Origin: Chondrosia reniformis
Taxonomy: Eukaryota; Porifera; Demospongiae; Chondrillida; Chondrillidae
Direction of reading: 5' to 3'
Assembly: GCA_947172415.1 (NCBI GenBank)
Contig: OX359189.1
Location: 7,144,501-7,208,500, forward strand
DNA: 64,000 nucleotides
Below, piece after piece: positions 37,686 to 64,000 of the stretch. Numbering within the stretch: the stretch's first letter is position 1; each line of letters starts with the position of its first letter. The position numbers and the translations under genes were made by a program. A model generated the notes under the pieces. The model was not told the origin of the DNA and searched no databases. It worked only from the letters and a program-made list of their open reading frames with translations.

Positions 37686-40600
37686 TCATGGGAGGATTTT
37701 GATGATAGCGTTCTGCTTGGTACACTCAACTCCAGGAGGAGGATGGAGATAGAGAAGGAAGAGCTCTGGTTCTTCTCTGTTACTGTCCCTCTGTAGCTTC
37801 ACCATTACATTATGTTTCTCCTCCAAGCTCCCAAGAGATGAAAAGAGGAGATAGGTTGTCTGTAACTTGTAATCCCCATCTAGTATAAAAATACTTAAAG
37901 CTTCAGTATACGTATATACGTATATACCTGCTAGATAACATGATAATGCCACATATGGGAGGTGACAAAAGGGGCTTATATATACGTGTGTATGGCTCTA
38001 CATACAAGTAATCCATATAAATGCGTAATTTTCTTTTATTAACTATCTTATATAATCTCATGATCCTTTTATCACATATGGACATACATAAACGTATATG
38101 TAGTAAGAGATTGTGCATGCCTTTATAAATACATAATACTTGCATGCATTATAATACGTATATACGTATGTATTATACACTCACGAGACTTAGCAGTAAT
38201 AGTTTGTTGTGTCACAGGTACAGCTAATGGTTGAGATAAATTTCCTTTCCTCACAACAGTCACATTCAGTACTGTACCTTCTCTCCCTGATAATTTTGTA
38301 TGTTCAAAATTAACTGATAATGCAAATCCTATACAGTTGAGGCAACCATGTAAACATCAGCAATGTGTTATACATAATAAGCAAAACATTCTTATCATCA
38401 TAGCCTTTGTACGACTCAGTGCAATTAACTCCCCCTTTTTCATTGTGTTGTGCATAATCCTGCTAGAAGAATGGTGGCATATTCATGACATTGTAAACAT
38501 TACATTACAGGACCTGAGAGTATAAATACTAATTATCACATCTTAATTTAATTTACCATAACTGCAAAGGTTTAAATTGTGGGGGAGTACCTACGTATAT
38601 AATATTTACTGCATCTATGAGGTGCCCCATAACAATATTCAAAACTATTATGACACAAATTCCACTCTAGTGGAAGTAAACTGTACTAATATATATATAG
38701 AAAGAAAAGAAACAATGATATACATTAGACAATAAAAACTTGTCTACCATCATGATCATCGTCCAGTATTGTAGCAGTTGTTGATAAAGCTGAATCAATA
38801 ATATTCAGTTCTTCATTTGTATCATTGTGTATCTCAAGTGTCAGGTAAAATAGTTCCGTTTCTTCTGGAATGTTATCGTTAATGATACGTATGATAGCAA
38901 CACTTGATACAGTAGTATTTGGTTGAAATACTGCTACATTTTCAACTCCATCAGTAAAATAATCAACAAATTCTAAAAGTAAAAAACATTTTAACATTTA
39001 GCTCCATATATGGTTTACTATATGGTTATATATACATGCATTAAGATTTATATATATATATAGAAGGGTGATGGATGGATAGATAATGTTGGATGGATGG
39101 AAAGACAGATATATATACGTACAAAGTATATATATACAAAGACTCACTATATACAAGATCCAACTGATGATAAAATTAATACAATATTAATGTCATTATA
39201 TACACACGACACAAGCATTACTTGTTATCACCACAGTAGATAGAAATGTGATCACCTTTGGCAGTTCCATCTGATGGCTTCACTGTGACTGAAATAGGCA
39301 GTGATGACGTTCCATTCATAATCAGTTGCACAAATAGTAAATCATCATCTTCCATCAATAAGTAACTACTGTCAGTAAATACTATTTCAAGCCCTATCGC
39401 AATATAGGACAACAATTATTGTTCATGTACTATATACATGTACATACGTACCTTCATATGGGAAGAATATATAGGTACGTACGTATATACATATCAAGTG
39501 ACTTGTGATCGATGTAATTTTGGGTACATATACTGTAAAGCATTCTATCAAAATCTTGCGGATTACACAATGGGGAAAACAACAGTCAGCCAAATGTATA
39601 ACAAATTTATGTGACAAGGCCAGTAGTGTGTAAGGCACTCTATTATCATTTAAAATGGGCTAGGAGTGCTTTACGTGATTTATGGCAATCAGTGTGGCCC
39701 TCATTGTGTGATTGGCTTTGTCTCTTTATCAGCAACTTGACCCCAACCCAAATGCTATAAACTTAAAGCCCTCCTAGCCCACTTTAAGTATCATATCATA
39801 TTAATTACGCAGTATAATGGCAATATTTAAATGATATAGATATCATGTTGCCACAACGCACACTCATCATCCACAATAACAACTGGTACTTCATTGGTCA
39901 GTAGTTCAACTTTAGGCTCCAATCCTTCTGGTACCTCAAAGTGAAGGTAAAACGTCTCTTTTGGTTCAGCAACATCATCATCCACTATAACAATATCCAT
40001 TTCTGTAGAGTACCGATCTCCAGGGAAGAAACGTACTCTATCAGTCTTCTCAATAAAGTCAGTCCCATCTATATAATATGTATATATACATAAGGATATT
40101 AATATAATGATACATGAAAACGTAACAACTGGTACCATCCCTACATAGAGAGTACTACCGTACATATACTGTATATGCGTATGAATACAACATAAGAAAT
40201 ATTTGTCACACTAATGATACATGTTATATGGTTACCCACTTTCAGCTGATTCCTCTCTTGTACTTATGACTACAGATATTTGTATGCTGTGTTTAGCTGG
40301 ACAGTATGCATTATCAATGAGAGGATCCACTTGTAATACTTCTAATTTGACACTCAATCGTTTATCAGATTCACTGACAATATATGTTTCATACTGGAAT
40401 TGTAGGTATAATCCTGTAGAGTATATATTATGAAACTTTCAACTCTACGCACATGTTAATTTTGATGATTATGTAAATAAAAGATAAAAAGTTACCTAAT
40501 GCTTGAAAAAAGTGAATAAAAATGGGAATTTTTATTGTAATACTGTAACAATTAATGTACTTTGCAAGAATAACATTTGTGACCCCTGCATTCGAGACCT

Positions 40601-43600
40601 CCTATATATGCATAACTCATCCTAACACTATAACTTACGGTCATCATCCTCAATGGCTACAATAATCTCATCACGAGGACCTGGTAGAATACCCAACGAT
40701 TGAAGGTAACTGTCAATAGTGAATGTCAGTACAAAGTACTCAATACTCTCTACAACACCATCATCATGAAGGAAGAGCTCCAGATATGTAGAGTTCAGTC
40801 CAAGGGATGGATCAAAACGAACAGATCGTCCACTGACATTGCTTGGTGGTTCATAGTCAGCACCTGTGGATAAAATGTTAGACATTTCCATATACATACA
40901 GCATGTTCAGCTACGTATATATATTGTTATAAGGATATATAAAACTGATTTGCACATATAACTGAATGTACAGGTCCATACCACTCAATGCTTCTGCTCT
41001 ACAATGAGTGTCTGTTCTCTTAAACTTTGATACAGAAACTGCAACTCTAAACTTTCTGATAATTGGCTGTGATGCATGGAGACCAATAACAACACTTTCT
41101 CCTTCCTTTCCATAGTAATGCTTATAATCAAATTCAATATATGTTGAACCTAGAGTATCATATATAATACAATTCCATTATTAAAATAAATAATTAATTA
41201 CTACAATACGTACATGTGTATTAGAATATGTACCTTGGACGGGAACATTCATATGCATCACTGCAGGACAGACACGTCTCAATCCTCTCACTTCAGGTTG
41301 CCAAATCAGACATTCTATACAGTTTGCATGATCTGGGATGTCTACCATTGCATAAGTGGAACTGCTTGCATGTTTAGTGAAAGTTACATTATACTTGACA
41401 CCAATATCAAATTTATCAGTAGAATTAGTAGCATCAAAGGAGTACCTTCCCAAATTGTCCGCACCTCCTGTATGTATGTAATATGGAAGAAGGAAAACAA
41501 ACATTTTAGATTATTACTCTTCCTTTAAAATGTAGCCATTAACAAGAATATTAATTTGTCAATGGCTTACCATCTGGTACTACCTCAAGACAAGATATTG
41601 TGACAACAGTAGGCCACAGAAGAGACTGCTTTGTAACAAGTTGCACTGCCTGCTGAGTAGCCCCTGGTGCTATGGTAATTTGGTCGGTTGAAAAGTGAAC
41701 TTCTGCCACTGTATATTATGTATAAACATCAATTAACAATAATTAAATAGCTAAAATAAACTTTAATACCATCGTTATCCAGTATAGTGATTGTAGCTTC
41801 TTCTGGTTCACCCTTCAGAGCATCTACTCCATCTGGTATAGTGAATGAGATGGTGAATGTCTCAGACTCCTCCCATCCATTATCATCTATCATGTTGATT
41901 CTGATAGGACTAGACTTGATTGTGTTAGCAGTAAAGTGAGCGACATAGTCAACTGGTTGATAGTCTACGCCCAATTCTGAGGAGAGATATAGTGATAGTA
42001 ATTTATCAAAGCTTGCAATATATACGTACTCCCAGGATCACTGATGAAGGGTGGAATTCCCAGAAGCAGCTGTCTGGCTCAGTGGAGAAAAAGATGAAAG
42101 AGAGGAAAATAAGAAAGAAAAACTCCTGTATCTTCATCCAAAGCTCTCTCCAGGTTTAGTTCCCCTATATATAGGCTTTTTACAGAATAGGCACAGCATG
42201 TAGGAAAATGGTGTATACGTATATGTATATATTATGGTTTCTACTGAGAGTTCATTATATTACTTCAGCTATATAAAAACAGATACTCAATATTATCACT
42301 GTACATTTGTATATATTTTTATGTAATATGTATATACATCTACGTAAATATAAACATATATTTTTTTGTGTCAAGGTGACACTGTAAACAAACCTGCTGT
42401 AATATCATGATATTTCAAGTCAATAGTTAGGTTATCCAGTACTTTGCCATGACCAAGTGTGACTACCAAATATACTATGAAATAGTCACTGTGCTCTTTC
42501 ACCACTTTCTGATCAGTATCAAAGTGAAATTGAACCCCTGTGTATTACATATAAAATTAAAGCCAAGATTAGACTGCAGTCACTTGGCTGGTTTGGCATA
42601 ATAGGTTTCCAATGATTTATTTGTTCATATATAATCATAGAGTACGGTAGTACTCTATAAGTAGGGATGGCCGAAAAAAAACATGGCCGCCCTATTCAAT
42701 GTATTATCAATTAACACCTCATAAATCAACAACGTTCAGATTTTCGGTTGCATTCGTGTGTTTGCAGTCGTTTTTGCATGCTTTTCTAAACGCCAAAACA
42801 TGTTACGATGCTCTACAACCTTAGCAAAGTGGTTAAACCGAAATAGGCCAAATTCTGCAATTCCTCATTTTTTCTTCTTCTTCTTCTTCTTTTTTCAAAT
42901 GAGCTAGCGCTAACATGCGAACTTACGCAGGTACATACAAATACTAAATCGTCATGAATGTTTCCGAACTAGGGAATAGGCTACCCTAGATTTCAACGCG
43001 CTCCAACCGAAGCGTGTTACTTTTGAAAGTGCCCAATTTAGGGCCTCTTTGAACGCCATTTTTTAATTAAGTTTCAAATTCTCTGTATATAAAATAAGTA
43101 ACCCGAATGAGTAATATTTGTGGTACTGCCGTTACCCGCGATCGAATTTCTTAGTCGCTTTGCAGGGCCTATATACAGTCGTATTCTTAACGATTATGGA
43201 CCCTTTAATATCCTAAACTGAATGTTTAAGAACGGTAGAAAACATCTTATCAAATTTGGGATCTTTTCGGACGCCATTTTTTAATTTAGAGCTCTCTATT
43301 ATATCGTCTATTCTGCTACTTTATTTCGAGTTTTCGCCAAGAAAACTTTCAAAATAAATATTAACAAGAAAAAAGGAGCAATACAAGTTGAAGTTAAAAG
43401 TAGGGATGGCACTATAACAGTGATTGGCACATCTAGAAAAAGTAATGAAACAAGAAAGTGATCATATGGTAAGGCTAACATTGCAGAAGTGGCATACTGA
43501 AACTTAACTATACACATCACTTCTATGTTTGGGCGCATCGATCCCTACTTCTAGTATATCCATGATGCGCCCAAACATAGAAGTGATGTGTATAGTTAAG

Positions 43601-46600
43601 TTTCAGTATACCACTTCTGCAATGTTAGCCTTACCATATGATCACTTTCTTGTTTCATTACTTTTTCTAGATGTGCCAATCACTGTTATAGTGCCATCCC
43701 TACTTTTAACTTCATTTTTGAATGTTTTTATTTAACTTTATTTAATTCACCTACATATTGCTAAATAATATATTATTGTAAAGTCAAAACTAGCTAGCTG
43801 GACAGTTTTATTAGAGTTTGTGCATGGAGGTTTATTTGAACAGAGTACATACCAACACAAGTTCTTCCATCACTACGCAATTTGTACCCTTTTCTACATC
43901 CACACTCATAACTCCCAATTGTGTTAATGCAAACTTGAGGGCAGTCATCTTGCAACAGAGCACACTCATCAATATCCTCTGATTGCACATGTATATAGTA
44001 GAAATGATATTTGTTTTTGTGAAGTAGACACACATGTATTAATTAACAAATTATTAAAACTTATTGTGGATTGCTCTATGTTTATGCATATAATTCTCAT
44101 GTTCATTCACTTACCTTGTACAACAAGAGTTACACAGGATTGGTTTGAAGTCAGTCTATAAGTACATATACAGAGTAAATAAGCATTCACACTATCTGCA
44201 CTACTTATAATAATACAGACAGTCATCTTAACAACTCACCCATTACTATCCATTGCATAATAGCAAAGCATGTGAGATCCAATATCAGATTCAGATGGTG
44301 TCCAACTGATCCTAACAGACCACTGGTTATCATCACCTCTGGTGAGACTGGACTTGTACAGTTGAATACCAAATGGTATAATAGTAGCCAAGATGGCAGT
44401 AATACTGTAAAAGGTATTAATATAAAGTGTTTAGATTTAGTGTTTTGCATACTACATACATACTATATATGACTGTATTGGACAAAAATGTTCATGTATA
44501 TATAATTCAATTCTAAATTGAGGGATTTTGAGTTTATAATCTAGTGAAAACAAGTCTTCTTTTGTATTTCCTTGGGATGACTAAATGCACTGTACCTTTT
44601 TCCAGAGAAAGCTTGAGCTGTTATGTTGTAATTAAAGTTGGCAGTCTTGTTAACATTTAAAGTTATAACTCCAACAGCTCCGTTAGATAGAGTACCATCC
44701 ACAATCCAAGGTTCTTGTCCACAACTGCCAACATTGAGTACACTTACCAAAAACTGCAGTGGAATACTACTGAGAGGAACTGTATCAGTTGAAGAAGCAA
44801 AGTCCTCAATCTGTATAGCTACTGCATAGTAACCAGTGCTTTGTCCTCCAGAATTGTATTGTAGTTCACATGTCCTCTGTTGATTTGGAATAATATATAA
44901 ATAAAATTATATTTGAGTTATATATTATTTGAGTATATATACCTATAAATTATACTTATATTATGTACATATACACTAGCAAGATTCGAGGATATATACA
45001 AGTGAAAATTGGTGAGGCAAATGATTACAAGGGTATCCAGCTTGAGATTTCAAGATTATATGCAGTTAGTGTGCCATATATAGGTTGACAAAAACTACAT
45101 AAAAACACTACAAATGTTTCTAACACAAATTGAGAAGTTAGCAATTAAATCATAATGTATGAAAAATCTAATATACCATTTTCCTACATGCTATATGCCT
45201 ATTCTGTAAAAAGAGCCTATAGGGGAACTAAACCTGAAGAGAGCTTTGGATGAAGATACAGGAGTCTTTTCTTCCTTCTTTTCCCTTCTTTCATCTTCTT
45301 CTCCACTGGGTCAGACAGCCGTTTCTGGGAATTCCACCCTTCATCATGATCAGTGATCTTGGGAGTCTTTGTCTTTTTCTATATCTTGATCTTCTGTGAA
45401 TCCTTGGCTCTCTATGCTAAATCTAGGGGTCTTATATACACTATTTTGGCGCCAATTAAAAGTTAAAAAAAAGGTGTTAACTAAGACACATGATGAAATT
45501 TAATTTTATGAAAGGAATGTAGGTCCAATTAACTTTTATGAATTAATTATAAATCTATTAGTAATCTTGTATATATATAGGTAAAACAGACTCAGCATAA
45601 CTATAGACTATAGCATAACTATAGACACAAGTAGGACATATTACATAAGTCTACCCTTAGGTCTTCTAGTAGTAACATTTCTTTGGAGGTGAGGTAACAC
45701 AATATGGGGTAACACAAGACAGTCCTTAAGCATACTAGCTACCTTTTGCTTACACTTGATTCTAACTAGAGGCTGCCAGGATAGGAAGGTTTTAAAGGTT
45801 GTATGTACTTCTAAACTTTTGTAATCCGTAATTAGCTAACCTCATTCAAGAAAGAGCCTGATAACACTTGACATACTCCATTACATTCACCCAATCCACT
45901 ACTGGCCCATCGACACCTGACATTATCACCATCATAATCTGCAACTGTTTACATATATGAATAAATGGGAGTTAATTGCACTGAGCTGTGCAAATTAAGG
46001 CTACGATGATAAGCAATAATACAACATTGGAAAGTTACAGTATATATATATTAATACATTTAATAGTAGTTGGTTATATACATATGATACCCAACAAGAA
46101 ATGCTATGGTATATACAAACATTAAGACAGAATATCAGCTTTAGTTCCTGCTACATTTGCTATCTGCAAAACTTTAACGTATATATGAGGCTATAATTAA
46201 TATAGTGAATATTTTCTGTTTTTCTGAAATTTCTATTAATGTGATTTACTGTATGTCAAAATTAAAATTAAACAAACTGGTCACTATCCCAAAGGTAGTG
46301 GCGTTGACAAAGTGAGTAGAAATATGTACTACGTATCTGCATACGTACAATAATTATCAGCCAAACATTTTTTATTTAAGTTACCTGGTATCTTAATTGT
46401 ATAAGTACATCCAGACTCTACTCCAACTAATTCAGCCATTACAGTGACAGGAGATGAGTTCATCTTACCAGATCTTCTGATATATTTGTATTTCATTCTT
46501 AACTCCCATTTAGGATAACCTTGACTTCGTATATATACCCAATGGCCATTTGCATACCTACAAGTAAATAAAAAACATTTACAAAAATGATGTTAGAAGT

Positions 46601-48662
46601 AGGAATGGTGCGCCCAAACACAGAAGTGTATGGTTAAGTTACTTAAATTTCAGTATATATATATATATGCAACTTCTGTATGATTAGCCTTATCATATAA
46701 TCAGTGTCTTGTTTCGATACTTTTTGCAGATGTATTAGTGAACACTGCCATTCCTACTTCTAACATCATTTTTGCAAATGTTTTTTATTTACTTGTATTC
46801 CCCCTTTTTTCCTCTTAATATTACTTGTTTTAAATTGATTTGAAAGTGTTCTTGGCGAAGATCTCAAAATAACGTCTTAGACTCTTAATTAAAAAATGGC
46901 GTCCGAGAAGACCACAATTTTCGCTCTTCACAATTAACATGCTTTTTGTAGAGCGCATTCAGATTTAGGGCCGTCTATTCCCTAGTTCAGAAATATTTAT
47001 GACGATTTATAACTTGTACGTGCCCGCATAAGTTCGCATATTAGCGCTAGTCTATTCAATAAAAGAAGAAGAAAAAATGAATTTTGGAAATGGGCCTATT
47101 CCTGGTTACCCACTTTTTGAGCGATGTATAGCGTGTAGAGCGTCGAAGCATGTTTTGGCATTTAGGAAAGCGTGCATTAATGGCTGCAAATAACCGAATA
47201 TAACCGAAAATCGCTTCGTTGGTGATTTATGAGGTGTTGATTGCTAATACATAGAATAGGACGGCCATTTTTTTTCGGGCCATTCCTACTTAGAGAGTAC
47301 TACCGTACTCTCTGATATACATTGTCAAGAAAAATGTGTTTTAAATTTGGTATATAAAAATATGCACTAGATGATATAGCTATTACAATATGGCTATATT
47401 ATTAATAAATAAATCTTAGACAACAGATTGCAGATTGATCTGATTCCACGTTAAATATATATAATTGAGAGTGTTGACTAATTGACATATAATCATGCAG
47501 TGTAAAGTTATAAGATATTACACCAACTAGCCAAGTTACAAAGCCTTTCTTGGTTGCATGGGGGAATGAAATTCTATATATATATATTATATCACTTCCT
47601 AGTCATCCAAGATGGGAAAAAAATATCAAAGAACCACAGACAGCTGTTTTTCCCTCCTTAAATCTCATCAGTGCAGTATACTTTGAAATTAGTGGTGAGT
47701 TAGAAACTTATTAATCCATCACAAGGGAACCAAATGATTACGGCTATAAAATTCCATGCACTACTTTACTTACGATGCTTCAAAGGATGAAACTGAGGGA
47801 GTATAACTAACACTATTTCCTCCAGTTGCATATATTCCTGGATTGCTATCATAGCAGTAGAAAGACCTCATGTAAGCAATAGATCCACTGCACCCACTAC
47901 GACAGTAAAGGTATCTATTACTTCCACTGTAACGTTCATTCATATAAGCAAGCTGTCCAATACTACAAGTTTCACGTTCAGACAGGCGATAGCTAATTTC
48001 AATCTACAGAGCAAAATTCACAAAGTATATCACTATTGGTTTTATATATATATGTTGGAGATTAGTTTTAAAAGATACATACGTAGGTACAGTATATATT
48101 GTACATTTACAGTAGCTATCTGACCTAGGTTATATAGGGCCAGGTATATAACTGGAGAGCTCAGGATTTTACATGGGAGAATTTATTGAGGAAAAAATGA
48201 GGTTTTAGGGTACTATCAAAGAAATCTAAAGAGTTTAGTTAAATAATTATTATACTTTAGCAAGGATCGATAGTCTAAGATATAGTCTAACTGAGCTATA
48301 CAGGCCTGGGATTAAAGTATAATTTATAATAGCTATTATGATCAGGGGTCCACTGATGGGCAAATATATGATAATGAAAATACTGTCTAGCTATTAAATA
48401 TATATATGCATCCAAATATTGACCTATAGATCAAAGTAATTAGGTTTATAAGGTATAAAAACTGCCTAGACGTACTCGTGCAAATTAAATGTTTATATAT
48501 GTATATATATTCAATATTTACCTCAGTATTATCGCTGTATGGTTCTACTGCCCTCCACATGATAATACCTCCTTCGAACTGCTTATAAGAGAGAGCAGGT
48601 AGGCACAATGCAAATAAAAGTGTTGATATAAAGGAAATGGAGAATGACCCAGTGGATTCCAT
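37686..48662 (-). CDS. Cluster gene 2: secreted EGF/Calx-beta repeat protein
   Basis: Paralogue of gene 1 with the same 20-exon plan and 1152 residues: 48522-48662, 47774-48003, 46385-46557, 45841-45944, 44596-44876, 44240-44404, 44115-44155, 43853-43978, 42394-42537, 41770-41976, 41571-41708, 41234-41467, 40982-41149, 40639-40863, 40240-40413, 39862-40068, 39256-39393, 38748-38972, 38185-38328, 37686-37879. It has a signal peptide after [10 protein letters not shown], the shared ectodomain ([10 protein letters not shown] ... [20 protein letters not shown]), an EGF domain ([16 protein letters not shown]), then six Calx-beta-type modules ending with ILDNDG, AIEDDD, VIVDDE and ILDDDHDG. Only in-frame codon differences distinguish its exon lengths from gene 1. 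No membrane anchor. Introns host a retroelement fragment, two related TIR elements and a small MITE, which explains the longer span. Likely calcium-dependent matrix or adhesion protein; no enzyme motif. Confidence 0.87.
38355..38445 (+). repeat. Dispersed short repeat with CAGTGCAATTAACTCCC
   Basis: The order AATAAGCAAAACATTCTTATCATCATAGCC, then CTCAGTGCAATTAACTCCC, is shared in reverse orientation with 45961-46040. The window start (16-35) carries a related TTAGTGCAATTAACTCTC. Unclassified. Confidence 0.45.
39650..39787. repeat. MITE with 24-bp terminal inverted repeats
   Basis: The left end TTAAAATGGGCTAGGAGTGC (from 39650) and right end GCCCTCCTAGCCCACTTTAA (to 39787) are inverted repeats with few mismatches. 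It lies in gene 2 intron 16, which gene 1 carries in a shorter form without it. Non-coding, 138 bp. Confidence 0.65.
42029..42212 (+). repeat. Retroelement 3'-end fragment in gene 2 intron 9
   Basis: It begins right at the hammerhead-like segment (ACTCCCAGGATCACTGATGA). The core is altered to GAAGC in place of GAAAC and TGGCTC in place of TGACCC. It is truncated before the common 3' end. Confidence 0.75.
42660..43704. mobile_element. Non-autonomous TIR element with nested palindrome
   Basis: Terminal inverted repeats are AGTAGGGATGGC (42660) and GCCATCCCTACT (to 43704). It is preceded by the palindrome GAGTACGGTAGTACTC. It lies in gene 2 intron 8. A related element in opposite orientation lies at 46598-47290 and a 66-bp derivative at 58846-58911. 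No transposase is visible. Its right third is an inverted duplication described separately. Confidence 0.65.
43389..43714. repeat. 151-bp near-perfect inverted repeat (hairpin)
   Basis: Arms 43389-43539 and 43564-43714 are complementary with a single mismatch noticed, separated by a 24-bp spacer. Each arm carries its own AGTAGGGATGG end. As a result the same short open frame appears on both strands, which is an artefact of the palindrome rather than a gene. Transcribed within the gene 2 intron it would form a long double-stranded RNA. Confidence 0.8.
45159..45802 (-). mobile_element. 5'-truncated retroelement copy in gene 2 intron 4
   Basis: Minus-strand copy covering the last part of the reverse transcriptase frame (KDCLVLPHI and flanks) and the complete 3' non-coding region to the shared terminus. 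It aligns with 32967-33564 of the copy in gene 1. The hammerhead-like core is disrupted by an insertion (CTGATCATGATGA). Confidence 0.8.
45961..46040 (-). repeat. Second copy of the CAGTGCAATTAACTCCC repeat
   Basis: Inverted relative to 38355-38445, with the same motif order. It lies in gene 2 intron 3. Unclassified. Confidence 0.45.
46598..47290. mobile_element. Second non-autonomous TIR element, inverted
   Basis: Ends are AGTAGGAATGG and CCATTCCTACT, flanked on the right by GAGAGTACTACCGTACTCTC. The interior matches the element at 42660-43704 in reverse orientation but has only one copy of the 150-bp arm segment (46598-46757). It lies in gene 2 intron 2. Confidence 0.65.
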
Positions 48663-50762: not shown

Positions 50763-50768
50763 TTTATT
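50763..50768 (-). terminator. Polyadenylation signal of gene 3
   Basis: AATAAA on the minus strand about 41 bp after the gene 3 stop codon. Confidence 0.45.
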
Positions 50769-50808
50769 ATAAGTAAAATATACAACTAAAAATTCTTTTG
50801 GAAAGTGT

Positions 50809-53800
50809 TTATATATAATATGGTCCATCCTTTTCTTCAGAGTAATTTGCTGCTTTGATATTCTGATTATTCAAACCATAACAAGGATTACTTTTCATTG
50901 TGATGTCCGTATCATTAACACTTTCATAATACACTTTATCTTGATTTGATGGTTGTCCTCCATTTTGTTGTCCCTTCTTTCTCATAATGAGGTAGGTTAT
51001 ACAGATACTAATTAGTGAACTCACAACAGACACAATCACTACTACTGCAGCACTTACACCAGCAGCTACTGGGATGGAGCAGTCATCTATTTGTTTCAAG
51101 ATGTAGCAATGATGTGCAATAAGTTTATAGTTTATATACAGTACTTTTTGGGTCCGTTGACCAGACTGGACATTGTAATCAGTAAAAAGGTTATCTCTGC
51201 ATGGTGATGTCATTCTAGTGGGAAAGTTTTCTCAAATGGTAATTGGGAGTGCCAACCAATTATCAATTGCAATGTCTGGACAACGGGCCCAAAAAGTACT
51301 GTACTCAAAAAGCAATAGACAAGATGTATTGCAGAGAAACAACAAAAGCAATGCTCTATACAATTCAACCCACCTTTAAGATCACTAACTTGGAGTTGAT
51401 TACATTGCACTATATACAATATATTAGGCATAAAAATAATTCAGCAAAACCCATAAATATATACGTACGTATGTACAATTACTTTATATTTAACATAACA
51501 AATCAAAAAAATCACAGTTAAACATAAACAAGTAAAACATTTTTGGGCTGCCTCCCCCACATTCGAATTACTTGAATGCTTTGTTTGGCTTTCATGTAGT
51601 CATAATCTAGGGACAGCCCCATAAAATGGTAACACAAAGAGGTGATATCTTGAAAATTGACCTCAGGACTTGTACAGTTGGTTTAGAATATGTATACACC
51701 AGTCGGTTTAGACTATATACCAGTCATTTCACTTAGTTATCTGTTACTTAACTAAATGGCACATTACACCTACCTCATATTGAATATGCTAACCATATAC
51801 TAAACGTGCATTTATACTAATAATAAAGTGGTGTTTCTAATCATCAAGCTAAGACCCAAACCCTACTCATGATCAGGGGAGAGGTATAATTGGTTACTGA
51901 TCACCATCAACACAGGAGAGCTGGGAAAGTCTATCTCAGTATATAATGATGATGATAAGACTATTAAGGTATGTCACCTAATTTTGATTCATAAAACTAC
52001 TTCTTCATTATAATCAGCTTCTTACTTGAAACATTAAGTGTGACACAATATTGGCTTGATGTCAACCTATGCATAATGAAATAAATTTACGTAGTCTATA
52101 TAGAAACAAAGAATTTATATACGTACGTATGTAGGTAAACGCAATGCACATAAGACCAGCCTTGTGACATGTGATTGTGAGTTGTCATATAAGAACCTCA
52201 TACTATATATGTAATTTACAGTATATAAGGAGGACTATATATGATAATGCATGAACTGTGAAGTTATCATGACAATAGTGCAATGCACTCCTTAATATAC
52301 AGGGCTGCATAGAGAGGGGTGGGGGCATTTGCCCCCCTAGGATTGATTTTGACCCCCCTCGACTTATGGGAACCACCTAAACTGCTTTGACATCCTCACC
52401 ACCTAAATTTTGAAAAATTTCATTTACCCCCTCTGGCCCTAAGTTCTGCATACAGCCTTGAATACATCAGCACAACCACAATCAGAGGGAAAATCATAAT
52501 CATATCATTATGTTCACAAGGGCATGAAGGGCTGCAGGCAAATTGTGGTTTTACATTATACCAAGGTTTAAGCTTCAAGTTCACTTACCCTTGGCTATCA
52601 ATGGCATAGTAGCAAAGCAGATGAGGACCAATATCAAGCAGTGAAGGAGTCCACAGGATATTCACTGTCCACTCAAGCTGATTGTTTGATGAAGTGGTGA
52701 TTGAGAGGTCAGACTTCATCAGTTGAATTCCAAATGGTGTGATGGTAGTTATAATATCCACAATGCTAATGCTACAAGGTTAGACATACATGCATACTTT
52801 ATCTATACTCAAAATTTAAGTGTAAATTTATGATTATAATTAGAGCTTGAAGTAGCCATTTTAGAACACACAACCTAGGCACTGTCAAGAACATTAGACA
52901 TACGTATGCATGCGTATGCACTGACAAGCACATACGTAAGTATCATGCACCTATACAAAAAATAAAAAACCTTAGTTTATATGTATTATATAGCAGTGAC
53001 TATAATACAATAAAAATAATAATATCTATAATAATCTAATTACCAAATTATACCACATTCATCCTTCGTATATGTCCACTATTGTATATATATAGCAGTG
53101 ACTATAATACAATACAAAATAATAATACAGCATTCTAGTTACCAAATTATTATAGCACATTCATCATTCTTACGTACGTACTTTGAATTTCTGGTTTGAG
53201 CTGTTATAAACCAGGATATAGAATTTCCAACAGATATGTTTAGAAATGCATTGTTAGGTAGAGTAGCATCCACAATCACAGGTTCTTGTGTACAATTACT
53301 AATGTTCACTGAATTCACCAAAAACTGCAGTGGAATACTACTGAGAGGAACTGTATCATTTGAAGAAACAAAGTCCTCAATCTGTATAGCTATTGCATAG
53401 TAACCAATGGCAAGAGGCGTTGTTGTATTGTATGTAAGCTCGCATTTCTTCTAAAAACATTAGAATACATATACGTACGTACATGACAGTAGTTTTAAGA
53501 ATGAAATAAACAAAAAATCTTATAATTAAAGACACATACATGAATACTCTAATACATCTTTTTTCTCATATGCTACATCTACTTTAGGCCTATAGGGAAC
53601 TAAAACTAGGGAGAGCTTTGGATGAGGATACAAGAGTTTTCTTCTACTTCTCTTCTTCTCCATGCACTGGGGCAGACAGCTGTTTCTGGGAATTCCACCT
53701 CCTTCAGTGAAATTGGTAATCTTTGTCTTCTTGTTGATCTTTTGTGAGTCTCTGTAGAATTATGCGCTAACTAAGACATGGCATTAACAGTTAATTAATA

Positions 53801-56724
53801 ACCTCATTCAAGATGGCTTCTGGTAAGGTTCTACACACTCCTCCACACTCGCCCAAATTACTGCGAGCCCATCGACATCTGACCTCATCACCATCATAAT
53901 CTGCAACTGTTTAAAACATGTACGTATATACATGTATATAAGATAACTAGCTTGCATGCATGTGTATGTACATATATACACCTACATAAACATAAATATC
54001 TCAAAATATATAGCAAATGTTTATACACAATTATGATTCTCTTGAAGTGACATTTTCTTATGAGCAGCTGGAAACTGATCATGAATGGCTGCTATTAAAA
54101 TATTTTTAATAAGCTAACTTTAAGATTAAACGTTTTGTTTGATACATACATGATGATGACTTGTTATAACTAAACAAAAAGTCATTTAAAAGAGCATATG
54201 TCATTGAATATAGAATAAAAGTATTTTGAAGGTTAGGAAGGTATAATTGTAACAATGCCTGCTATATACGTACATACATTGGTACTGTTACATATACCCT
54301 ATTATTACCTGGTATCTTAATTGTATAACTACATCCAGACTGTACACCAACAACTTCAGCCATTGCAGTGACAGGAGATGAGTTTAACGCACCCAATGTT
54401 TCCGTGTACCTATAACTTATCCTTAATTCCCATGATGAACGATTTCCAGAGGCCATTGTAACCCAACTTTCACCCATAAATCTATAGATATATGCAAAAA
54501 TTGTAAATTGTAGTGATCGTTACACATGCATGATATATAACTTTTCCAATAGTGCAGCAAGTTTTTTTAATTTATTTTTTACTCCTGAATTACAATTAGC
54601 ATTAAACATTTATCAAAAGGTATGATGTATAAAGTGTTGAGACTTACGATGCCTCAAATGATGACTCATTAGTGTTGAAAATGAAGCTTCGGCCTCCAGT
54701 AATGCCAAGATCTGTTACATTATTATAGCAGTAGACAGTCATTTCTTCTGCTAGAATTCTACTACATCCAACACGGCATTCTAGACTTCTACCATCCACC
54801 GAAACCAGCGATCCCAAAGTACAATTTTGTCTTCCAGTTATGCGATAACTTATTTGAATCTGTATGTTATTGTATGCACAGTTATATTCTGTACATTATA
54901 TTGAGAATATATACGAATGTATACACAATAAATGGATAAAGAATATTCTGTCTCTTCATCTTCATATATACTATTCATAATAATAAACATTTCTCTATTT
55001 AATAGAATAAGGATTTCTTCTAACTGCCTCAAACGTATAGTATAAAACGTATAAAAGGTTCACAAACCAAAACTGCTTCTTTAGACACTCTAACAGACGA
55101 AAGATGAACCTTCTAAAAGATAAGTTTCTCTACTTGTATGAGAATATTGTAGAAGGTCATTGCAAAGTCCAGTATAAACCTGTTTATAAATGTGACTTGC
55201 ACAGGAGCATAGGAAGCCATCATATGTATGTAGGCCTGCTGGTCCAGTTTTGGCAGGACCATTTTTTGATGCAAACTTATAAAATTCTTTTAACTTCTAT
55301 ATATACTGGGTCAACCCCAAGAAAAACTTCAGCTGAAGTTAAGCAATCCTAGCTACTTAGAGTAAAGCTTAAATGTTTGTTAGTTGTTTCAGTTTACTTT
55401 ATCGTTAACAAATTTATCTTTCTTTACATATAATATGGTAAACTGAAAATATTTACATTTCAATGGTGATAAGTGTTTATAACTCCAATGCAAGAAACTA
55501 TATACTGGTAACAAAGGTATAGCAAAAACAATGTGTAAGATCTGTTTCACTTCTTGTTTAAACTTTAAACTTTGCACATATCCTGTTAATTTGTGTAGTA
55601 TATATATACAGTAGATACCTCCACCCTTATTAGTTTGTTGCCATGGCAATGTGGTATAAATATTAACATATTACAGTATTTATATAATTACAATCAAGTA
55701 CGTATATGTACAATACAGGTTGCTCTGGCTCTTGGGATAACTACAGTTAAGATTTGTCATTGCATGCAAATTCGTATAGTGTAGCTATATAGGCATCATA
55801 AAATGTACGTACTCCTACTATCAGCTAACTTGACATCCTCACACTACATATGTACGTATAATGTATAGAGCAATAGTTTATTGTTTGTAACCAAACAGCA
55901 TATTGAATGCACATTTAGTAAACTACGTATGTGTTACATTATTTCCAAAATGTCAGTCTCTTTAAGAGCAGTCGCATGCACGAACAGTTTGATGTACCTA
56001 GAGGCTCGGAAGCTAAGGCCATAAGGTTTGACTATATTTGTACAAATGGCTACTGAATATATACCAAAGGCTTGAAAGATGATATCAAGAGTACACACTT
56101 ATGTGAAACCTTTTAATAATGTAAACCACAAATGTAATCCATTTGTCATTATGTAAAGTTTACAATCTGTAGAGTACTATTTACGTACACGATGATCTAA
56201 ACAGCTTGCTGGTAGCAGGAGTACTTTTTATATGGTGCCTAAGTATAATACACTATGTAGCACATTGACTTACGTACAATAAAACTTTTACCGTTTAACA
56301 TAAACTTGATTGTATTGTTTAGCTTAAATCTATAGTTCAATTATTCGATCCGTATTCTAATATTTACTTCCCTTACAGAGAGTGCGGTGAGTAAAGTTTG
56401 TGGTATCGCTAGCGGACTCTCCCCTCCCCCATACCATTTAAGCCTATATTCCTATTGACCTCCTTAAAGAGTTAAATGCTATGTCTAGAAATTTAATTTT
56501 AAGGTGGATCAAACAATAATATAAAACGTATGCTTATTGTAGCCTACCACATTTCTTGAACCGTCATGAAGAGCTCTCCACATTATTATCCCCCCGCCAA
56601 AATGAGATACACAAGCAGAAGGAAAGCAGGTAGCGAACACGAATAACACAGGCACAGCTGATGTGGCAAGCATCATTATTCTACCTGATGGTGCTCTCTT
56701 TACTATATAGATGGTTTGCGACAT
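50809..56724 (-). CDS. Cluster gene 3: transmembrane receptor-like protein with the shared ectodomain
   Basis: 478 residues from eight exons: 56548-56724, 54648-54859, 54309-54481, 53803-53906, 53182-53450, 52589-52771, 52026-52066, 50809-51086. An in-frame TAA precedes the ATG at 56724; a second start at 56676 would give a tighter signal peptide (MMLATSAVPVLFVFATCFPS). Exons 2-7 match the ectodomain of genes 1 and 2 in order, length and phase ([54 protein letters not shown]). After exon 7 a single last exon replaces the EGF/Calx-beta part: DDCSIP, a helix at about 393-421 (AAVVVIVSVVSSLISICITY), stop-transfer RKK, then a 57-residue tail. The tail has tyrosines at 439, 440, 456, 468, 476 and 477, including YESV and the PTB/endocytosis-type motif NPCY (453-456), and ends PYYI. 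Inferred type I receptor or adhesion molecule; ligand unknown. Confidence 0.87.
52310..52460. repeat. hAT-like MITE (tentative)
   Basis: CAGGGCTGCAT at the left and the complement of CAAGGCTGTAT at the right form an imperfect TIR, with G- or C-rich runs inside (GGGGTGGGGGC, CCCCCCT). It lies in gene 3 intron 6. No clear 8-bp target duplication was found. Confidence 0.4.
53568..53757 (-). repeat. Diverged retroelement 3'-end fragment in gene 3 intron 4
   Basis: Same motif order as the other minus-strand fragments (GGGAGAGCTTTGGATGAGGATACAAGAG, GGGGCAGACAGCTGTTTCTGGGAATTCCACC). The CTGATGA segment has decayed to CTGAAGG (read as CCTTCAG on the plus strand). Confidence 0.65.
55008..55045 (+). 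repeat. Short piece of the second dispersed repeat family
   Basis: AAGGATTTCTTCTAACTGCCTCAAACGTAT matches the beginning of the repeats at 24598 and 57381. It lies in the large first intron of gene 3 (54860-56547), which otherwise holds no feature I can support. Confidence 0.4.
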
Positions 56725-56961
56725 TTAGTCTACACACCTCAGAGAGGGTGTGAAACTTGTTGGAACTGCAAGGTTTCGATTGATTTCGACCTTTGTGGAC
56801 AAACACCTACGTATACCATATTTAGTCATTGGAATAGGTTTGCAATTGCTGCTTCTGTGTTTTTGTGAGGAAATGCCTATATTTGAACACATACATAGTA
56901 AACACTCTTTTATGTTGTGCATATGGCATCTAAAGAATACGCCTTTCATTATCCATCATGG
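56725..56961. promoter_or_regulatory. 237-bp spacer between gene 4 stop and gene 3 start
   Basis: It must hold the 3' UTR end of gene 4 and the promoter and 5' UTR of gene 3. No AATAAA or TATA box could be placed with confidence. Such tight head-to-tail spacing is unlike the 1.7-2.1 kb gaps between the other cluster genes. Confidence 0.4.
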
Positions 56962-59900
56962 TCATGGGAGGATTCTGATGATTGCTTGTTGCTTAGTGCT
57001 CTGTACTCCAGGGGGAGGATGGATATAGAGAAGGAAGAGCTCTGTGCCTTCTCTGTTACTGTCCCTCTGTAGCTTCACTGTCACATTCTGTTTCTCATCC
57101 ATGCTCCCAAGAGATGAAAAGATGATGAATGTTGTCAGCAAGCTGTAATCAGCGCCTACATGCACAGAATATACATATTATATGGAGAATAAGTAATACA
57201 TAGTGATCTGTGATCATGAATGATTACTATTCATTTTCAACTAAATTAACTGTTAAACTTCAATTGACATTATACATACACCCAGATATATGATTATACA
57301 ATCAATCATGTATATATAGTGAACACATCCCCTATATATAGACAGGTGGTCATCCTTACATTGTAAACTCTATAATAGAATAAGGATTCCTTATAACTGC
57401 GTCGAACTTATCTTTGGGATGGTACATCCTTCGACTTTTGAGCGTTTAAAAACGCAGTTGGTTTTTCGATTCTTGGTCAAACGTTTCGACCCTGGGGGTC
57501 TTCATCAGTCACTGAGGAAGACCCCCAGGGTGGTACATCCCAAAGATTGTAAACTCTACATGTACAGTCATCAATATGAGTATATGCTCTTAAAAAGGGC
57601 TTTTATACTAAGGTCTATAGTATAATCCTTTGTTTGAAGAAGTGTTGATGATTGCTCAATAAATAATTCTCTACAGAAGGATTGCAATATATAAGTAACC
57701 CTTTTCATTTCACTTATATAATAAGTGTATATATGTGGATGGATGCACCTATGTGCATCTGAAATTGTCCAGCCATCATAATCAGGGTCTTCCTCTCAGC
57801 CTTAATAAATTACAAAATTAATATACTATACTACTACGTAGTTTACTCCATACATTTTTGGTTCATTCTACATTCTACATACTTGGAACTGCAGTAATGG
57901 AATGGGCTGTCACAGGTACACCAAGAATTGCAGATAACCTTCCTTTTCTCACAACTGTCACATTCAATAAAGTGCCTTCCCTTCCGGACAGAACCGTGAG
58001 CTCAAAATCCACAGATACTGTAGTTCCTGTATAAAAATAATATAATGATTTGAGAGTACATATTTTGTGTTGCTACTGATTATATATACATGTTCCAATT
58101 ATATAAAATTATGCAAGCCATTCAAAAATTACAGAAAACAGTACTAGTGCTTCCAGTAATATACGTAAGTGTTAGGTTAATAATAGCACATACTAATATA
58201 ATTGTATGTACGTATATAGTACATAAATATACCATTCCAATCATCATCCATTACAGTAACAGAGGTCGTTGCATTGGGTGTTACAATATTTAGGTCTTTA
58301 TTTGTATCATTATGTATCTCAAGTGTCAAGTAAAAGAATTCCGTTTCTTCTGGAATGTTATCATTAATGATATGAATAATAGCAACATTAGATACAGTAG
58401 CGTATGGTTCAAATATTGCTACATTTTCAACTCCATCAGCAAAATAATCCAGGAACTCTACAAGTAGAGAAAAAAATTATGTCCTCACGATCAAAAACAA
58501 ATATAATCTATTTCTATGGTTATAAAATAAAGTTTAATCCAAGATTAAAGGGGGTTAATGAACTGAACTGGTTGCAACTGCTATATAGTCCTAAATTGAG
58601 ATGCTGCTTCGAGCATGTGCGTGCAGTCATTGCCTCATGAAGGTGCACTGAGCAGTGGTAGGACTTTACATAGTTCCTGACATTTTCTTTTTCTCTCTCT
58701 CAGTATTGTAACATATCTCCACTCTAGTAGAGAGTGTGATTGGGAATCTGGTTCTGTTCCCCTCTGGTGTGTCCTCTTCTGTGAGTCAATGTAAGTATAT
58801 ACTTTGACTTGTACTGTTAGGCTCAAGGGCGATCCAGTGATCATATAGGGATGGATGCACTTAAACATATACATCAAATAGGGCAGTTATGTTTTTTCAG
58901 CCATCCCTACTTAGGGAGTATACTATGTATACTTTAATAGTATTACTGTACCCTTCAATAGTAGTAAACATTACACAGTCCATGCATTTTGGTAAGAAAT
59001 ATTCTGAACTTTAATATACCTGTAGCAGTTCCATCTGATGGTTTTACTGTGACAGATATAGGAAGTGAAGATATTCCATTCATAGTTAACTGAACCATTA
59101 ACATCACACCAGCACCTTCAGTCATTACAAAACTGTTTTGATCAAACCATACTTCAACTCCTAGTACAGATTATATATATACATATGTATATATCATAAA
59201 ATAAACATTTATATATACTACAAATAAATATACACGATAATCAAACCACAGATATATATGTTTACGTATATAGATAAAGAGCCAATGACAGTTGATTAAT
59301 TGGATTATCACAGTAACCCTACTGTTGAGGCCAAATTCTAATGTCTCTCTCATAATATAGTGAAAGGATTTCTTTGACTTTCTGTGTACTTAAATCTCTC
59401 AGACGTATAGGACTTATACAAGATGCATTCTAATACAATCAGCTTGTGTAACTATATCCCAGATAGGCTACCCTATATATTTTGCATGCCATATATACTG
59501 ATCCATCCAATTAAGTAGAATAAAACATTGATCTTTCCCATTTGAGCACCTGAAGGGATATGAGTGGGTTCAATCATAAATTTGGCCTTAGATCTTATAA
59601 AGATTTTAACATCTCTTATTTTCATGTCCAAGGAAGAATAAAACAATCATGACTATATATTAGTAGAGTTTTTGTATATATGTATGATTAAGGTAATATT
59701 TGTCATGTCTAAAATATGTAAATTATGTGCCCTTCCACAATCTACACGTACTTTCATCATCCTCAATAACAACTGGTACTTGATTGTTCAATAGTTTAAT
59801 CTTAGGCTCCAATCCTTCTGGTATCTCAAAGTGAAGATAAAACATCTCTTTTGGTTCAGCAACATCATCATCCAAGATACTAATATTCATCTCAGTAGAG

Positions 59901-62900
59901 TATTGATCTCCAGGGAAGATCGAATCGTACTCTCTCAGTCTTCTCAATAAATTCAGTTCCATCTGTACCAGTTTATAATGAAAACATTTGAATTGAAAAA
60001 AAATATAATCAACATAGGATCACTTTTAGCTGATTCTTCTCTTGTCCTTATAGTTACTGTTACTTGTATACTGTGCATAGCTGAAACATAATACCTCCTG
60101 TAGACCGAGTCCACTTGTAATACTTCTAATCTGACAGTCAATCTTTGATCATATTCATTGACAATATATCTTGCGTACTGGAAACTTAGCAGTAAGCCTA
60201 TATATATACCCATATATACAATTTAATTAACGGAAAAAGTATAATTTGCATTGTTATATATCTAACCACATAATAATGACATTATAATACATGTGCAAAC
60301 AAACATTTAAGAAATGCATGCATATGGTTCTCCTCTCTGTGTACATGACTCTCGTGCACTTACTATTGTTATCCTCAATGGCTACAATAGTCTCATCATG
60401 AGGACCTGGTAGAATACCCAACGACTGAAGGTAACTGTCAATAGTGAATGTCAGCACAAAGTACTCTGTACTCTCTACAACATCATCATCATTAAGGAAG
60501 AGCTCCAGATATGTAGAGTTCAGTCCAAGGGATGGATCAAAAGTAACATATCCTCTATTAATATTTCTTGGTGTTCTTACGTAATTTTGTGGACTTGGTG
60601 TGATTGGTGGTGTTATTGGTAGTGACCCTGGTGGTTCATAGTCAGTTTCTGTAATGTACATATTTATATATATATAATATATACGTACGTATATATTTGT
60701 AACTTGCATGTATGTAGTTAATGTAAATACTTAACATGTACATATATATTATACATAATGTATGCCTAGTAAAAAACAAATACTGTAAATCACTTTAGTT
60801 ATATAATGTCTTTATAATATACCTTTTATTGCATATGGTATGTTGAGTGAATCTGTATTGTTAAACTCCAAAACAGAAACTATCACATTGAATTGTCTTA
60901 TTAAAATTGGCTGTGACGCATGGAGACCAATAACAACACTTTCTCCTTCCTTTCCATAGTAATGTTGGTGATCAAAATTAATAAATGTTGGGCCTATAAG
61001 GGAATATTATGTACGCACATATAAAAATATATCAGTAGATCAATTCTTCAGTAAAAGGCCTATATATGGGGAAGTAAGCCTAGTGAGAGCTTTGGATTAG
61101 GATATATACAAGAGTCTTCTCTTCATTCCTCTGCTCCACTGGACTAAACAGTTGGTTTTGAGAATACTACCCTTCATCAGTGACCCAGCATGGAAGTCCT
61201 TCTGAAAGTTCTGATTATAAGATCCTTATATATATATACTTAGATCCATGTACGTACGTACATACAGCATATACAAACATACGTATGTATCTCAAATATT
61301 TGAGAAAAATGCTTACCATAAATTGGTACATGAAGATGAATAATGGTTGGAAACCCAAGCTTTACTCCTCTCACTTTAGGCGGCCATATCACACATGTCA
61401 AACACTTTACAGGTGGAATATAAACAATGGCTTCACTTGAAGTGGTAGCATGTTTCAAGAAAGTTACATTGTGTTCTATACCAGCATTACAATTATTCCA
61501 TTCATCAGATATACCTGAGAAATAACAAGTTGCAAAGTATACATTATACAGTATGAATATATATGTATATCTTTTTCAGTGTGTAATTAATGCACTTTTA
61601 TAATGTTTTAACTGTTAGCATATGGCATACCATCTGTGACAATACAAGATAATGTAAGATTGTAAGGAGTTAGTATAGACTGCTTTGTCACAAGGTGTAG
61701 AGCATGGAGAGAAACTCCTGGTTCTATGTTGACTTGATCTGTCGGGAAATGAACCACAATTTCTACAAAAGTGGAACGTTTTCAAGATCTAAACTTCACA
61801 TTGAACTATTGTCACAATTCAAATGTACCATCGTTATCCAGTATAGTGATTATAGCTTCTTCTGGTTCACCCTTCAAAGCATCTACTCCATCGGGTATAG
61901 TGAATGAGATGATGAATGTCTCAGACTCCTCCCATCCATTATCATCTATGATGTTGATTCTGATGGGACTAGACTTGGTTGTGTTAGCAGTAAAGTGAGC
62001 CACATAGTCAACTGGTTGATAGTCAATGCCCAATTCTGTTGATCAATATAAAATCAAATGGATTGTGATACTGGAATTCATGCACAAATTGATATACTGT
62101 AAGCTATATAGTTAGTTAGCACTTATAAATATATTTTTCTCTATCCACATATCTATATACAAATGTTTTGTAAGTACGTATATATACCTGCAGAATAATC
62201 CTGGTATAGAACATCAATTGTGAAACCTTTTGTTACTTCTCCAAGAGCCAACAAATAAACTAAAATGTAGCCATTGTTTTCTTTAACATTTAGAGGACTG
62301 ATTTCAAACTGAAGTAGAGTTCCTATACAATTACAATTATAAACAATGTAAAATTTTATAAAGTTTTATTACCATGCAAGGAGAAAGGACATTCATATTT
62401 CTGCAGCCATTTTCTTTGTAGGCTATTATCTATGCTTTGCACTATAGGTTCATACCGACACAATTCTTTCCATCACTGTGTAACTTATATCCTTCTCTAC
62501 ATCCACATTCATAACTCCCAATTGTGTTAATACAGATTTGAGTACAGTTGTCTTGCAAAAGTGCACACTCATCAACATCTACGTCCTCTATTTGATAAAG
62601 AGCTTTATATCAAAATTACCAATGTGCAAATATGGCAGAGCTTACCGACACAAGTTCTTCCATCACTTTGTAAGGTGTATCCATATACACACGCACACTT
62701 ATAACTCAACAATGTGTCAATACAGATCTGAGTGCAGTTATCTAGAACAAGGCTACATTCATCCACATCCTCTGCACCATATTTATATAGCATAAAAGTA
62801 AAAATAGAAGAATAGAAGAAATTAATCCTTTCAGTTATATACATAAATTATGAAAGGCTTTTAAATCATGAATTGAACATGTTATAATTTTTGTACTTCA

Positions 62901-63845
62901 ATCCTTAAAGCTTAAAAACCACACAATCTATACGTACATACCTCATGACAATTAGAGATCAAATAAAGAGCCTTGACCTTTCAGTGAATTTAAATTTATA
63001 CATATAAATATAATACAGTAATCAGTAGTTTCTATTATATTGATGGTAAATGAATTATATTATCAGTATAATAGTTTCTATAATACTATTAATGGTACAT
63101 AAAATGGATGCTTCCATTGAAATATATAAGATTTTTTTCTAATACCTTGTACAAATAGTTCCACGCAAGATTGTGCTGAAGTCAGCCTGTGCACAATAAG
63201 AAAATGTTATTCTAATAAATATTTTTCTTAAATCTATGGCCACTCACCAATTGCTATCCATTGCATAATAGCAAAGCATGTGAGATCCATTGTGGTATTC
63301 AGATGGTGTCCAACTAATCCTAACAGACCACTGGTTGTCATCACCTCTGGTGAGATTGGACTTTTGTAGTTGAATACCAAATGGTGTAATAGTAGCCAAG
63401 ATGGCAGTAATACTGTAGAGGTGTATGGAGAAATATTATAAACCCCATATTATCTTACATCTGAGTGCTCATTCTTATACTGAGACTGTATGTCATCTAG
63501 TATCATTTTTACAAACCATTTCACTGTTGCTTTTTAAAATTAGGATAGCAAAACACTATATACAGTATGTATATACCTTGAATTATAACTAGCTTGTGCG
63601 GTAATCTCATAATTGAACTGATTATGGTAGGTAATAACTTTGACAGCTCCATCAGGTAGTGTAGCATTAGAAATCCAAGGTTCCTCTCCACAACTACTAT
63701 CATTTATTACATTCACCAAAAACTGAAGTGGAATACTACTGAGAGGAACTGTATCAGTTGAAGAAGCAAAGTCCTCAATCTGTATAGCTACTGCATAGTA
63801 ACCAGTATTTTGTCCTACTGAGTTGTATTCTAGTTCACATGTCCT
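56962..63845 (-). CDS. Cluster gene 4: EGF/Calx-beta protein, 5' part outside window, frameshifted
   Basis: Seventeen exons visible: 63577-63845, 63248-63412, 63146-63186, 62646-62771, 62456-62587, 62188-62322, 61829-62035, 61631-61762, 61317-61514, 60823-60993, 60364-60648, 60024-60197, 59752-59962, 59020-59160, 58233-58457, 57883-58026, 56962-57155. The first three equal ectodomain exons 5-7 of genes 1-3; exons 1-4 lie beyond position 64000. Two EGF domains follow (DVDECSLVLDNC and [12 protein letters not shown]) where genes 1 and 2 have one, then six Calx-beta-type modules. Exon 60364-60648 is about 20 codons longer, with a Pro-rich insert (LPITPPITPSPQN). Exon 59752-59962 is 211 nt against 207 in genes 1 and 2 owing to a 4-bp insertion at about 59920-59923, which shifts the frame to an early stop. 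All other exons stay open in frame, so this is either a recent lesion, an allele, or an assembly error. Confidence 0.8.
57381..57547. repeat. Fold-back repeat with CTGATGA/CGAAACG hairpin
   Basis: Contains the perfect inverted repeat CCCTGGGGGTCTTC / GAAGACCCCCAGGG (57491-57504 and 57517-57530). It also has outer inverted pieces ATCTTTGGGAT near 57411 and ATCCCAAAGAT near 57537. On the minus strand CTGATGA, a GACCC/GGGTC helix and GAAACG are in hammerhead-like order, but stem I does not pair well. Confidence 0.5.
58846..58911. repeat. Short derivative of the AGTAGGGATGG TIR element
   Basis: TAGGGATGG at 58846 and GCCATCCCTACT at 58900-58911, followed by GGGAGTATACTATGTATACT. Lies in a gene 4 intron. 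Confidence 0.45.
61060..61205 (-). repeat. Diverged retroelement 3'-end fragment in gene 4 intron
   Basis: Recognised by CCTAGTGAGAGCTTTGGAT, AGAGTCTTCTCTTC, CTCCACTGGACTAAACAG and CCCTTCATCAGTGACC in the family order on the minus strand. The core is decayed. Confidence 0.6.
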
Positions 63846-64000
63846 CTGTTTTGATATATACCAAGCAAAAAAGCATTGATGCATTTACATACATACTGCT
63901 AATAGCATAGGAAATATATCAGAATATGCATTGAGATTATTATGGGAACACATAATGGACAATCCAGGTGGTCAAACCTATATATGGCTTCAAACTTCCC

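Follow-up and report, generated by a model that had tools for sequence, protein, structure and literature searches.

Gene 3 is one of several related genes in a 64,000-nucleotide stretch of the genome of the demosponge Chondrosia reniformis (contig OX359189.1, positions 7,144,501 to 7,208,500 of the forward strand), called the window from here on. It probably encodes a chimeric type I single-pass receptor, one in which short gene conversion recently either brought in the transmembrane helix and proximal cytoplasmic tail from a cluster of FN3-type receptor genes or homogenised them with that cluster. Exons 1-7 would supply the kind of head found in the surrounding gene array, and exon 8 would come from a family of helix/tail exons otherwise found in the FN3-type cluster. 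These sequences suggest that the animal passes signalling tails between unrelated receptors. An earlier note on this stretch (the original prediction) had described gene 3 as the receptor version of a soluble protein family and proposed that soluble and anchored proteins form a pair; we consider the borrowed, homogenised signalling exon of greater interest than the pairing idea.

Gene 3 was spliced by hand on the minus strand, at 50809..56724 of the window, as eight exons encoding 478 residues that are laid out as signal peptide, head, a single transmembrane helix and a tail. All eight exons are open, all seven introns are bounded by GT and AG, the phases join, and an AATAAA lies 40 nt past the stop codon. 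Boundaries were picked by hand, and at the donor of exon 5, where overlapping GT dinucleotides are possible, phase was used to choose. The short exon 7 is entered in phase 2 and left in phase 1; exon 7 of genes 1, 2 and 4 also ends in phase 1. Exons 1-7 match the neighbouring genes exon by exon (for exon 1, 40% identity over 45 residues with the first exons of genes 1 and 2; Table 1 gives the others), which bears out the original prediction that gene 3 keeps the ectodomain of its family. Its membership of the family with head, EGF and Calx-beta domains is thus a partial one, in which head exons 1-7 are present and the EGF and Calx-beta modules are not. Pfam gave two weak matches on gene 3 and none over cut-off, and the best match of the head among PDB sequences had an E-value of 0.48. 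Hidden EGF or Calx-beta remnants were rejected, as none was found between exon 6 of gene 3 and gene 2: the best match in 48700-52600 had an E-value of 0.017 over 10 residues, while the identical queries did recover EGF and Calx-beta exons of genes 1, 2 and 4.

A search of the genome with exon 8 DNA found 13 places, gene 3 and 12 others. Searches of the animal's own genome score the best candidates only, and all family counts given here are therefore lower bounds. The 12 other copies all lie on the plus strand at C1:6.910-6.992 Mb, on the same chromosome as gene 3 (C1) and on the opposite strand. Nine of them show 94-98% identity over 118-168 nt, one shows 81%, and two are short fragments; the nine close copies are at C1:6.910-6.969 Mb, and the cluster as a whole is 204-285 kb from gene 3. 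This DNA search found no copy outside gene 3 and the FN3-type cluster, and protein searches with exon 8 returned the identical set and, in other parts of the genome, weak relatives. Upstream of the cluster tails, four of five pieces scored over the Pfam cut-off for FN3 (L018, L019, L034 and L064, with L016 below it); none of the six outer-exon pieces tested did so for Ig, and these are "Ig-like" by eye only. Gene 3, with no Pfam match over cut-off, lacks an FN3-type ectodomain, and no match to its head exons was listed in the cluster region, where exon 8 alone matches. The original prediction, that helix and tail take the place of the EGF and Calx-beta modules, agrees with the helix, the tail of 57 residues and the lack of remnants. 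What did not survive is a receptor end private to gene 3, since nine cluster exons match its helix and proximal tail at 94-98% DNA identity. The outer, FN3 and tail exons of the L018 gene join in phase 1. Phase 1 was also read for the EGF exons of genes 6-8. Because the head, EGF and FN3 junctions that were read are all phase 1, an exon of this type could be joined in frame after any of these modules.

The match between gene 3 and the cluster has sharp boundaries. It extends from the first bases of the exon to directly past YYESV, and at the nine cluster loci searched neither the flanking introns nor the remaining tail gave a DNA alignment. Six of the 12 copies were compared with gene 3 in frame, the other six being excluded for frameshift, stops, gaps or a missing helix. 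Inside the block, four copies differ from gene 3 at 4, 5, 5 and 15 of 165 nt and two at 4 and 4 of 144 nt; over the next 15 codons downstream, 19 of 45 nt differ in each of the six (Fisher p 2.6e-11 to 1.1e-6). Synonymous divergence (dS) amounts to 0.05-0.16 within the block; outside it, the roughly 8.5 synonymous sites available are saturated. In head exon 5, dS between gene 3 and its three array neighbours (genes 1, 2 and 4) is 0.38-0.78. The distal tail gives an ungapped protein alignment to the cluster tail, with nine residues separating YESV from NPxYG in each; six of the 15 aligned residues are identical, and four of those six are the NP-YG of NPxYG. The tail exons of L018, L019 and L028 have a different start (SNPSLSxCA) joined to the identical helix block, apparently further evidence of exchange inside the exon, this time on its 5' side. 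In the simplest history, the exon would have been common to both loci, or captured, long ago, and the helix and proximal tail converted over a short tract, or captured, recently.

The helix of gene 3 reaches a Kyte-Doolittle hydropathy of 2.59 over 19 residues, and six tyrosines occur in its 57-residue tail, among them those of VYYESV and NPCY. The consensus for an immunoreceptor tyrosine-based inhibitory motif (ITIM) is [S/I/V/L]xYxx[I/V/L] in a cytoplasmic tail, and VYYESV matches it. When the tail was shuffled 20,000 times, NPxY appeared in 4.6% of the shuffles, an ITIM-type motif in 9.4% and both in 0.36%, the motifs having been picked post hoc, once the tail had been inspected. Such odds are weaker evidence than the 12 other genomic copies of the exon and the retention of NPxYG in a distal tail whose synonymous sites are saturated. 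Seven of these copies keep both YYESV and NPAYG, five with the helix and two having lost it by in-frame deletion. Among the remaining five, one has NPAYG only, one is frameshifted, two have early stops, and in the 81% copy both motifs are altered. An immunoreceptor tyrosine-based activation motif (ITAM) consists of two YxxI/L units 6-12 residues apart. Five cluster tails come near this layout, as YESV-x12-YG[LV]V, with V instead of I/L. SH2 domains bind phosphorylated YxxV, and PTB domains or endocytic adaptors bind NPxY. Exon-level matches in the genome (E<=0.001) number 82 for SH2 and seven for PTB. The tail does look capable of signalling, as the original prediction held: its exon is common to another receptor family, VYYESV fits the ITIM consensus, NPxYG is kept, and the genome has SH2 and PTB matches. 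No other occurrence of the distal tail of gene 3 was found in the genome, and its derivation from the tail of genes 6-8 was rejected (best match six residues, E 0.16).

Weakly similar tails occur at C8:465-510 kb, C10:841-873 kb and C1:6.845 Mb, each with YExV or YETI followed by [NS]PxY, and at C9:4.988 Mb, where NPCY is present and YQTS stands in place of YExV. They are suggestive only, because they were found through similarity to the query.

Several points weigh against a recent capture or conversion of a signalling exon. The distal comparison is small, covering roughly 8.5 synonymous sites in half of the 12 copies, and the low dS of the block could partly stem from constraint on synonymous sites. 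A tree of the core from 11 sequences has supports of 15-66, bar one pair at 100, and does not resolve direction; that the cluster would be the source is judged from its 12 copies against one and their wider spread, not from the tree. The joining of exon 7 to exon 8 is a prediction from the genomic sequence alone. As five of the 12 copies lack one or both motifs, the tail is not uniformly constrained. Where the five cluster tails have their second YxxV, gene 3 has YGLN: its arrangement, YESV-x12-YGLN, does not fit the ITAM consensus, and the gene 3 tail cannot be read as bipartite and ITAM-like.

The head array in which gene 3 lies is a tandem one of at least eight genes and runs past the window to C1:7.27 Mb; the architecture of genes 1, 2, 4, 7 and 8 was obtained by exon-by-exon reading. 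The last exons of genes 1, 2 and 4 have a best hydropathy of only 0.41 to 1.03. EGF_CA scored 53.1 bits in one exon of gene 2, and one Calx-beta match over cut-off is listed in each of genes 1, 2 and 4, further exons being recognised through similarity; the whole genome gave 154 Calx-beta matches. The stop of gene 4 and the ATG of gene 3, both on the minus strand, are 237 bp apart (window 56725-56961). Gene 5, of which the view is partial, has head exons, and one Calx-beta match lies between genes 5 and 4. Genes 7 and 8 consist of the head, three EGF exons, a helix (3.05) unrelated to that of gene 3 and an 82-residue tail with six tyrosines and a C-terminal LYEPVDI, the helix and tail exons being open. 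Head copies are also dispersed. On C11 a putative strong helix exon follows two of the four copies inspected (L049 and L069), and no comparable one was seen in the stretch examined downstream of L068 and L070; on C4, copy L051 continues into FN3 exons (three of three pieces over the Pfam cut-off). These differing continuations, in the array and in dispersed genes, make the head look like a reusable front end.

The idea that gene 3 is the sole anchored head gene was rejected, because genes 7 and 8 have helix and tail exons further downstream, and with it goes the original prediction of gene 3 as the one receptor version. The search it had proposed for further anchored paralogues yielded these two genes, with their different helix and tail, as well as the putative helix exons after the two C11 copies. 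Its picture of neighbouring soluble and anchored proteins with one head holds for genes 1, 2 and 4 as against 3, 7 and 8. A paired-receptor architecture fits in that the head type is common and the ends differ; the heads themselves have diverged, to 40-62% identity in the exons compared.

Could the soluble and anchored head proteins then form a ligand/receptor or homophilic recognition pair, possibly for allorecognition? A single array does place one head on secreted-type genes 1, 2 and 4 and on anchored genes 3, 7 and 8, and the gap between gene 4 and gene 3 recalls the 227 bp given for Botryllus fuhc-sec and fuhc-tm (PMC3691228). Compact spacing by itself is no proof, however. With heads only 40-62% identical in the exons compared and found in other architectures elsewhere too, we regard such a pair as possible but doubtful. 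A different role would be that of an endocytic or scavenger receptor, with uptake through NPxY and VYYESV incidental. In its favour, no part of the distal tail is better kept than NPxYG, and cluster copy L020 has lost YYESV yet retains NPAYG; but both motifs are kept in seven of the 12 other copies, and the tails on C8, on C10 and at C1:6.845 Mb, matches selected by similarity, have YExV/I together with [NS]PxY. A purely endocytic receptor seems on balance rather unlikely.

Two further alternatives concern exon 8. Very strong purifying selection, reaching to synonymous sites, might have kept the block in an exon 8 that is old in gene 3, with no recent exchange. In keeping with this, conservation among the cluster copies too is highest in the block, and the ungapped distal tail does imply that the exon in its entirety goes back to an old common ancestor. 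We nevertheless consider selection an unlikely account, as dS of 0.05-0.16 in the block gives way to saturation over the next 15 codons of one exon, and in L020, L028, L031, L034 and L064 the block itself or adjoining sequence carries substitutions, deletions or stops. Decayed copies do exist, several in the cluster and gene 6 in the array, and on this precedent exon 8 might be unused, gene 3 being a pseudogene or soluble fragment and the exon a separate decaying copy. Set against the eight open exons, canonical splice sites, fitting phase and the AATAAA past the stop, that is very improbable.

If helix and proximal tail were indeed captured or converted, the ~168 bp that encode them would have been copied recently, or repeatedly, between loci via short gene conversion, while ectodomains, introns and distal tail diverged separately. 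The tail might be phosphorylated on tyrosine by a Src-type kinase, whereupon YYESV would recruit SH2 proteins and NPCY would recruit PTB or endocytic adaptors. A head-type sensor would in this way drive an output common to the FN3-type receptors, together with the distal tail peculiar to gene 3. Soluble matrix-type paralogues with the head would be plausible ligands or competitors.

Among known recognition systems, the Alr receptors of Hydractinia have Ig-type ectodomains, unlike the head of gene 3, which has no Pfam match over cut-off. The Calx-beta domains of sponge aggregation factors recur in the soluble neighbours of gene 3; unlike those factors, gene 3 has no Calx-beta domain, and its neighbours begin with the head and EGF domains. 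Botryllus FcoR and Hydractinia Alr receptors bear tyrosine motifs, ITAM/ITIM in Alr (PMC12065747), and the genes described here resemble Alr as clustered invertebrate receptors with tyrosine-motif tails. The fuhc/fester co-receptors of Botryllus, likewise clustered, have YxxI/L/V core motifs and ITIMs (PMC12065747). At the fuhc locus, secreted fuhc-sec and membrane fuhc-tm are adjacent (PMC3691228; PMC12065747), so that in both animals a secreted EGF-containing protein adjoins a membrane protein, 227 bp away there and 237 bp here. Unlike at fuhc, the secreted and anchored proteins here have a paralogous head without an Ig match and are known from the sequence of one genome, and the signalling exon is common to a structurally different receptor family. 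The mammalian CEACAM paired receptors show concerted evolution via short gene conversion and co-option of a transmembrane exon in CEACAM32 (PMC7042247). Gene conversion in a receptor family and a co-opted transmembrane exon are features that gene 3 and its relatives would have in common with CEACAM. The pattern differs, in that ectodomains are homogenised and signalling ends differ there (PMC7042247), whereas helix and proximal tail are homogenised here and the ectodomains are unrelated. A partial literature search, covering titles and the openings of abstracts, found no description, in a sponge or otherwise, of a helix/tail cassette common to receptor families with unrelated ectodomains.

Exon exchange, if true, would mean that an early animal lineage standardises receptor output and varies the sensors, the reverse of mammalian CEACAM. 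Candidates for coupling a matrix-type recognition protein to tyrosine signalling are gene 3, genes 7 and 8, the FN3-type cluster and the soluble genes 1, 2 and 4. One may go further and imagine the head array and the FN3-type cluster as a single recognition complex that spans C1:6.91-7.27 Mb, at least 0.36 Mb. Gene conversion would there exchange a phase-1 helix/tyrosine-tail cassette between structurally unrelated receptor families, and diverse self/non-self sensors with secreted relatives would feed one kinase/phosphatase readout. Such a complex could count as a poriferan counterpart of fuhc and Alr, but we think this extension quite improbable.

Table 1. Exons and tail features of gene 3, and neighbouring head genes, in window coordinates.
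Feature	Position	Strand	Description
Gene 3 exon 1	56548..56724	-	Signal peptide (likely from an internal Met, by eye) and start of head; GT donor, phase 0
Gene 3 exon 2	54648..54859	-	Head; 40% identity to genes 1 and 2
Gene 3 exon 3	54309..54481	-	Head; 52-54% identity to genes 1 and 2
Gene 3 exon 4	53803..53906	-	Head; motif ADYDGDEVRCRWA...GECGGVC; supported by genome matches
Gene 3 exon 5	53182..53450	-	Head; 54-60% identity to genes 1, 2 and 4
Gene 3 exon 6	52589..52771	-	Head; 59-62% identity to genes 1, 2 and 4
Gene 3 exon 7	52026..52066	-	Short, closes head, LTSSQYCVTLNVS; located via similarity to exon 7 of genes 1, 2 and 4
Gene 3 exon 8	50809..51086	-	Juxtamembrane region, transmembrane helix, cytoplasmic tail and stop; phase 1 acceptor
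Homogenised block	50918..51085	-	Helix and proximal tail to YYESV; ~168 nt, 94-98% DNA identity to nine cluster exons
Transmembrane helix	50983..51051	-	Residues 399-421; predicted by hydropathy
VYYESV	50917..50934	-	ITIM-like YxxV motif; the 12 other exon copies include 7 with it, 5 of which have the helix
NPCY	50878..50889	-	PTB/endocytic-type motif; ungapped alignment to NPAYG of cluster tails
Gene 1	27242..35932	-	Head, EGF and Calx-beta; last exon without helix; predicted soluble paralogue
Gene 2	37689..48662	-	Head, EGF_CA and Calx-beta; last exon without helix; predicted soluble paralogue
Gene 4	56962..64000 (5' end outside window)	-	Head, two EGF and Calx-beta; last exon without helix

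Some further exons of these families were seen. Two cluster exons, L062 (C1:6933446-6933613) and L063 (C1:6937283-6937450), have no helix and keep YYESV and NPAYG; soluble or cytosolic forms and decaying copies are both possible. Groups of helix and tail exons at C8:465-510 kb (L054-L057) and C10:841-873 kb (L052, L053, L058 and L060) show YExV and SPAYxxV motifs. In the array, gene 6 (L065, C1:7225673-7225404) has exons like those of genes 7 and 8, but the reading frame shifts in its third EGF exon and a stop codon lies in frame immediately ahead of its helix. Gene 6 may be either a decayed copy or an assembly error. About 1.1 kb downstream of the helix exon of gene 8 lies a separate tail-like exon, LYEKVD...ESNPAYAALN followed by a stop (L067, C1:7265845-7265627, minus strand), which may be an alternative last exon or the remnant of another receptor. 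A dispersed repeat with a recurring pseudo-ORF (open reading frame; for example GGGIPRNSCLPQC...) is found in or near these genes, at window 53759-53529, 45338-45223, 34958-34846, 7995-7890 and other positions.

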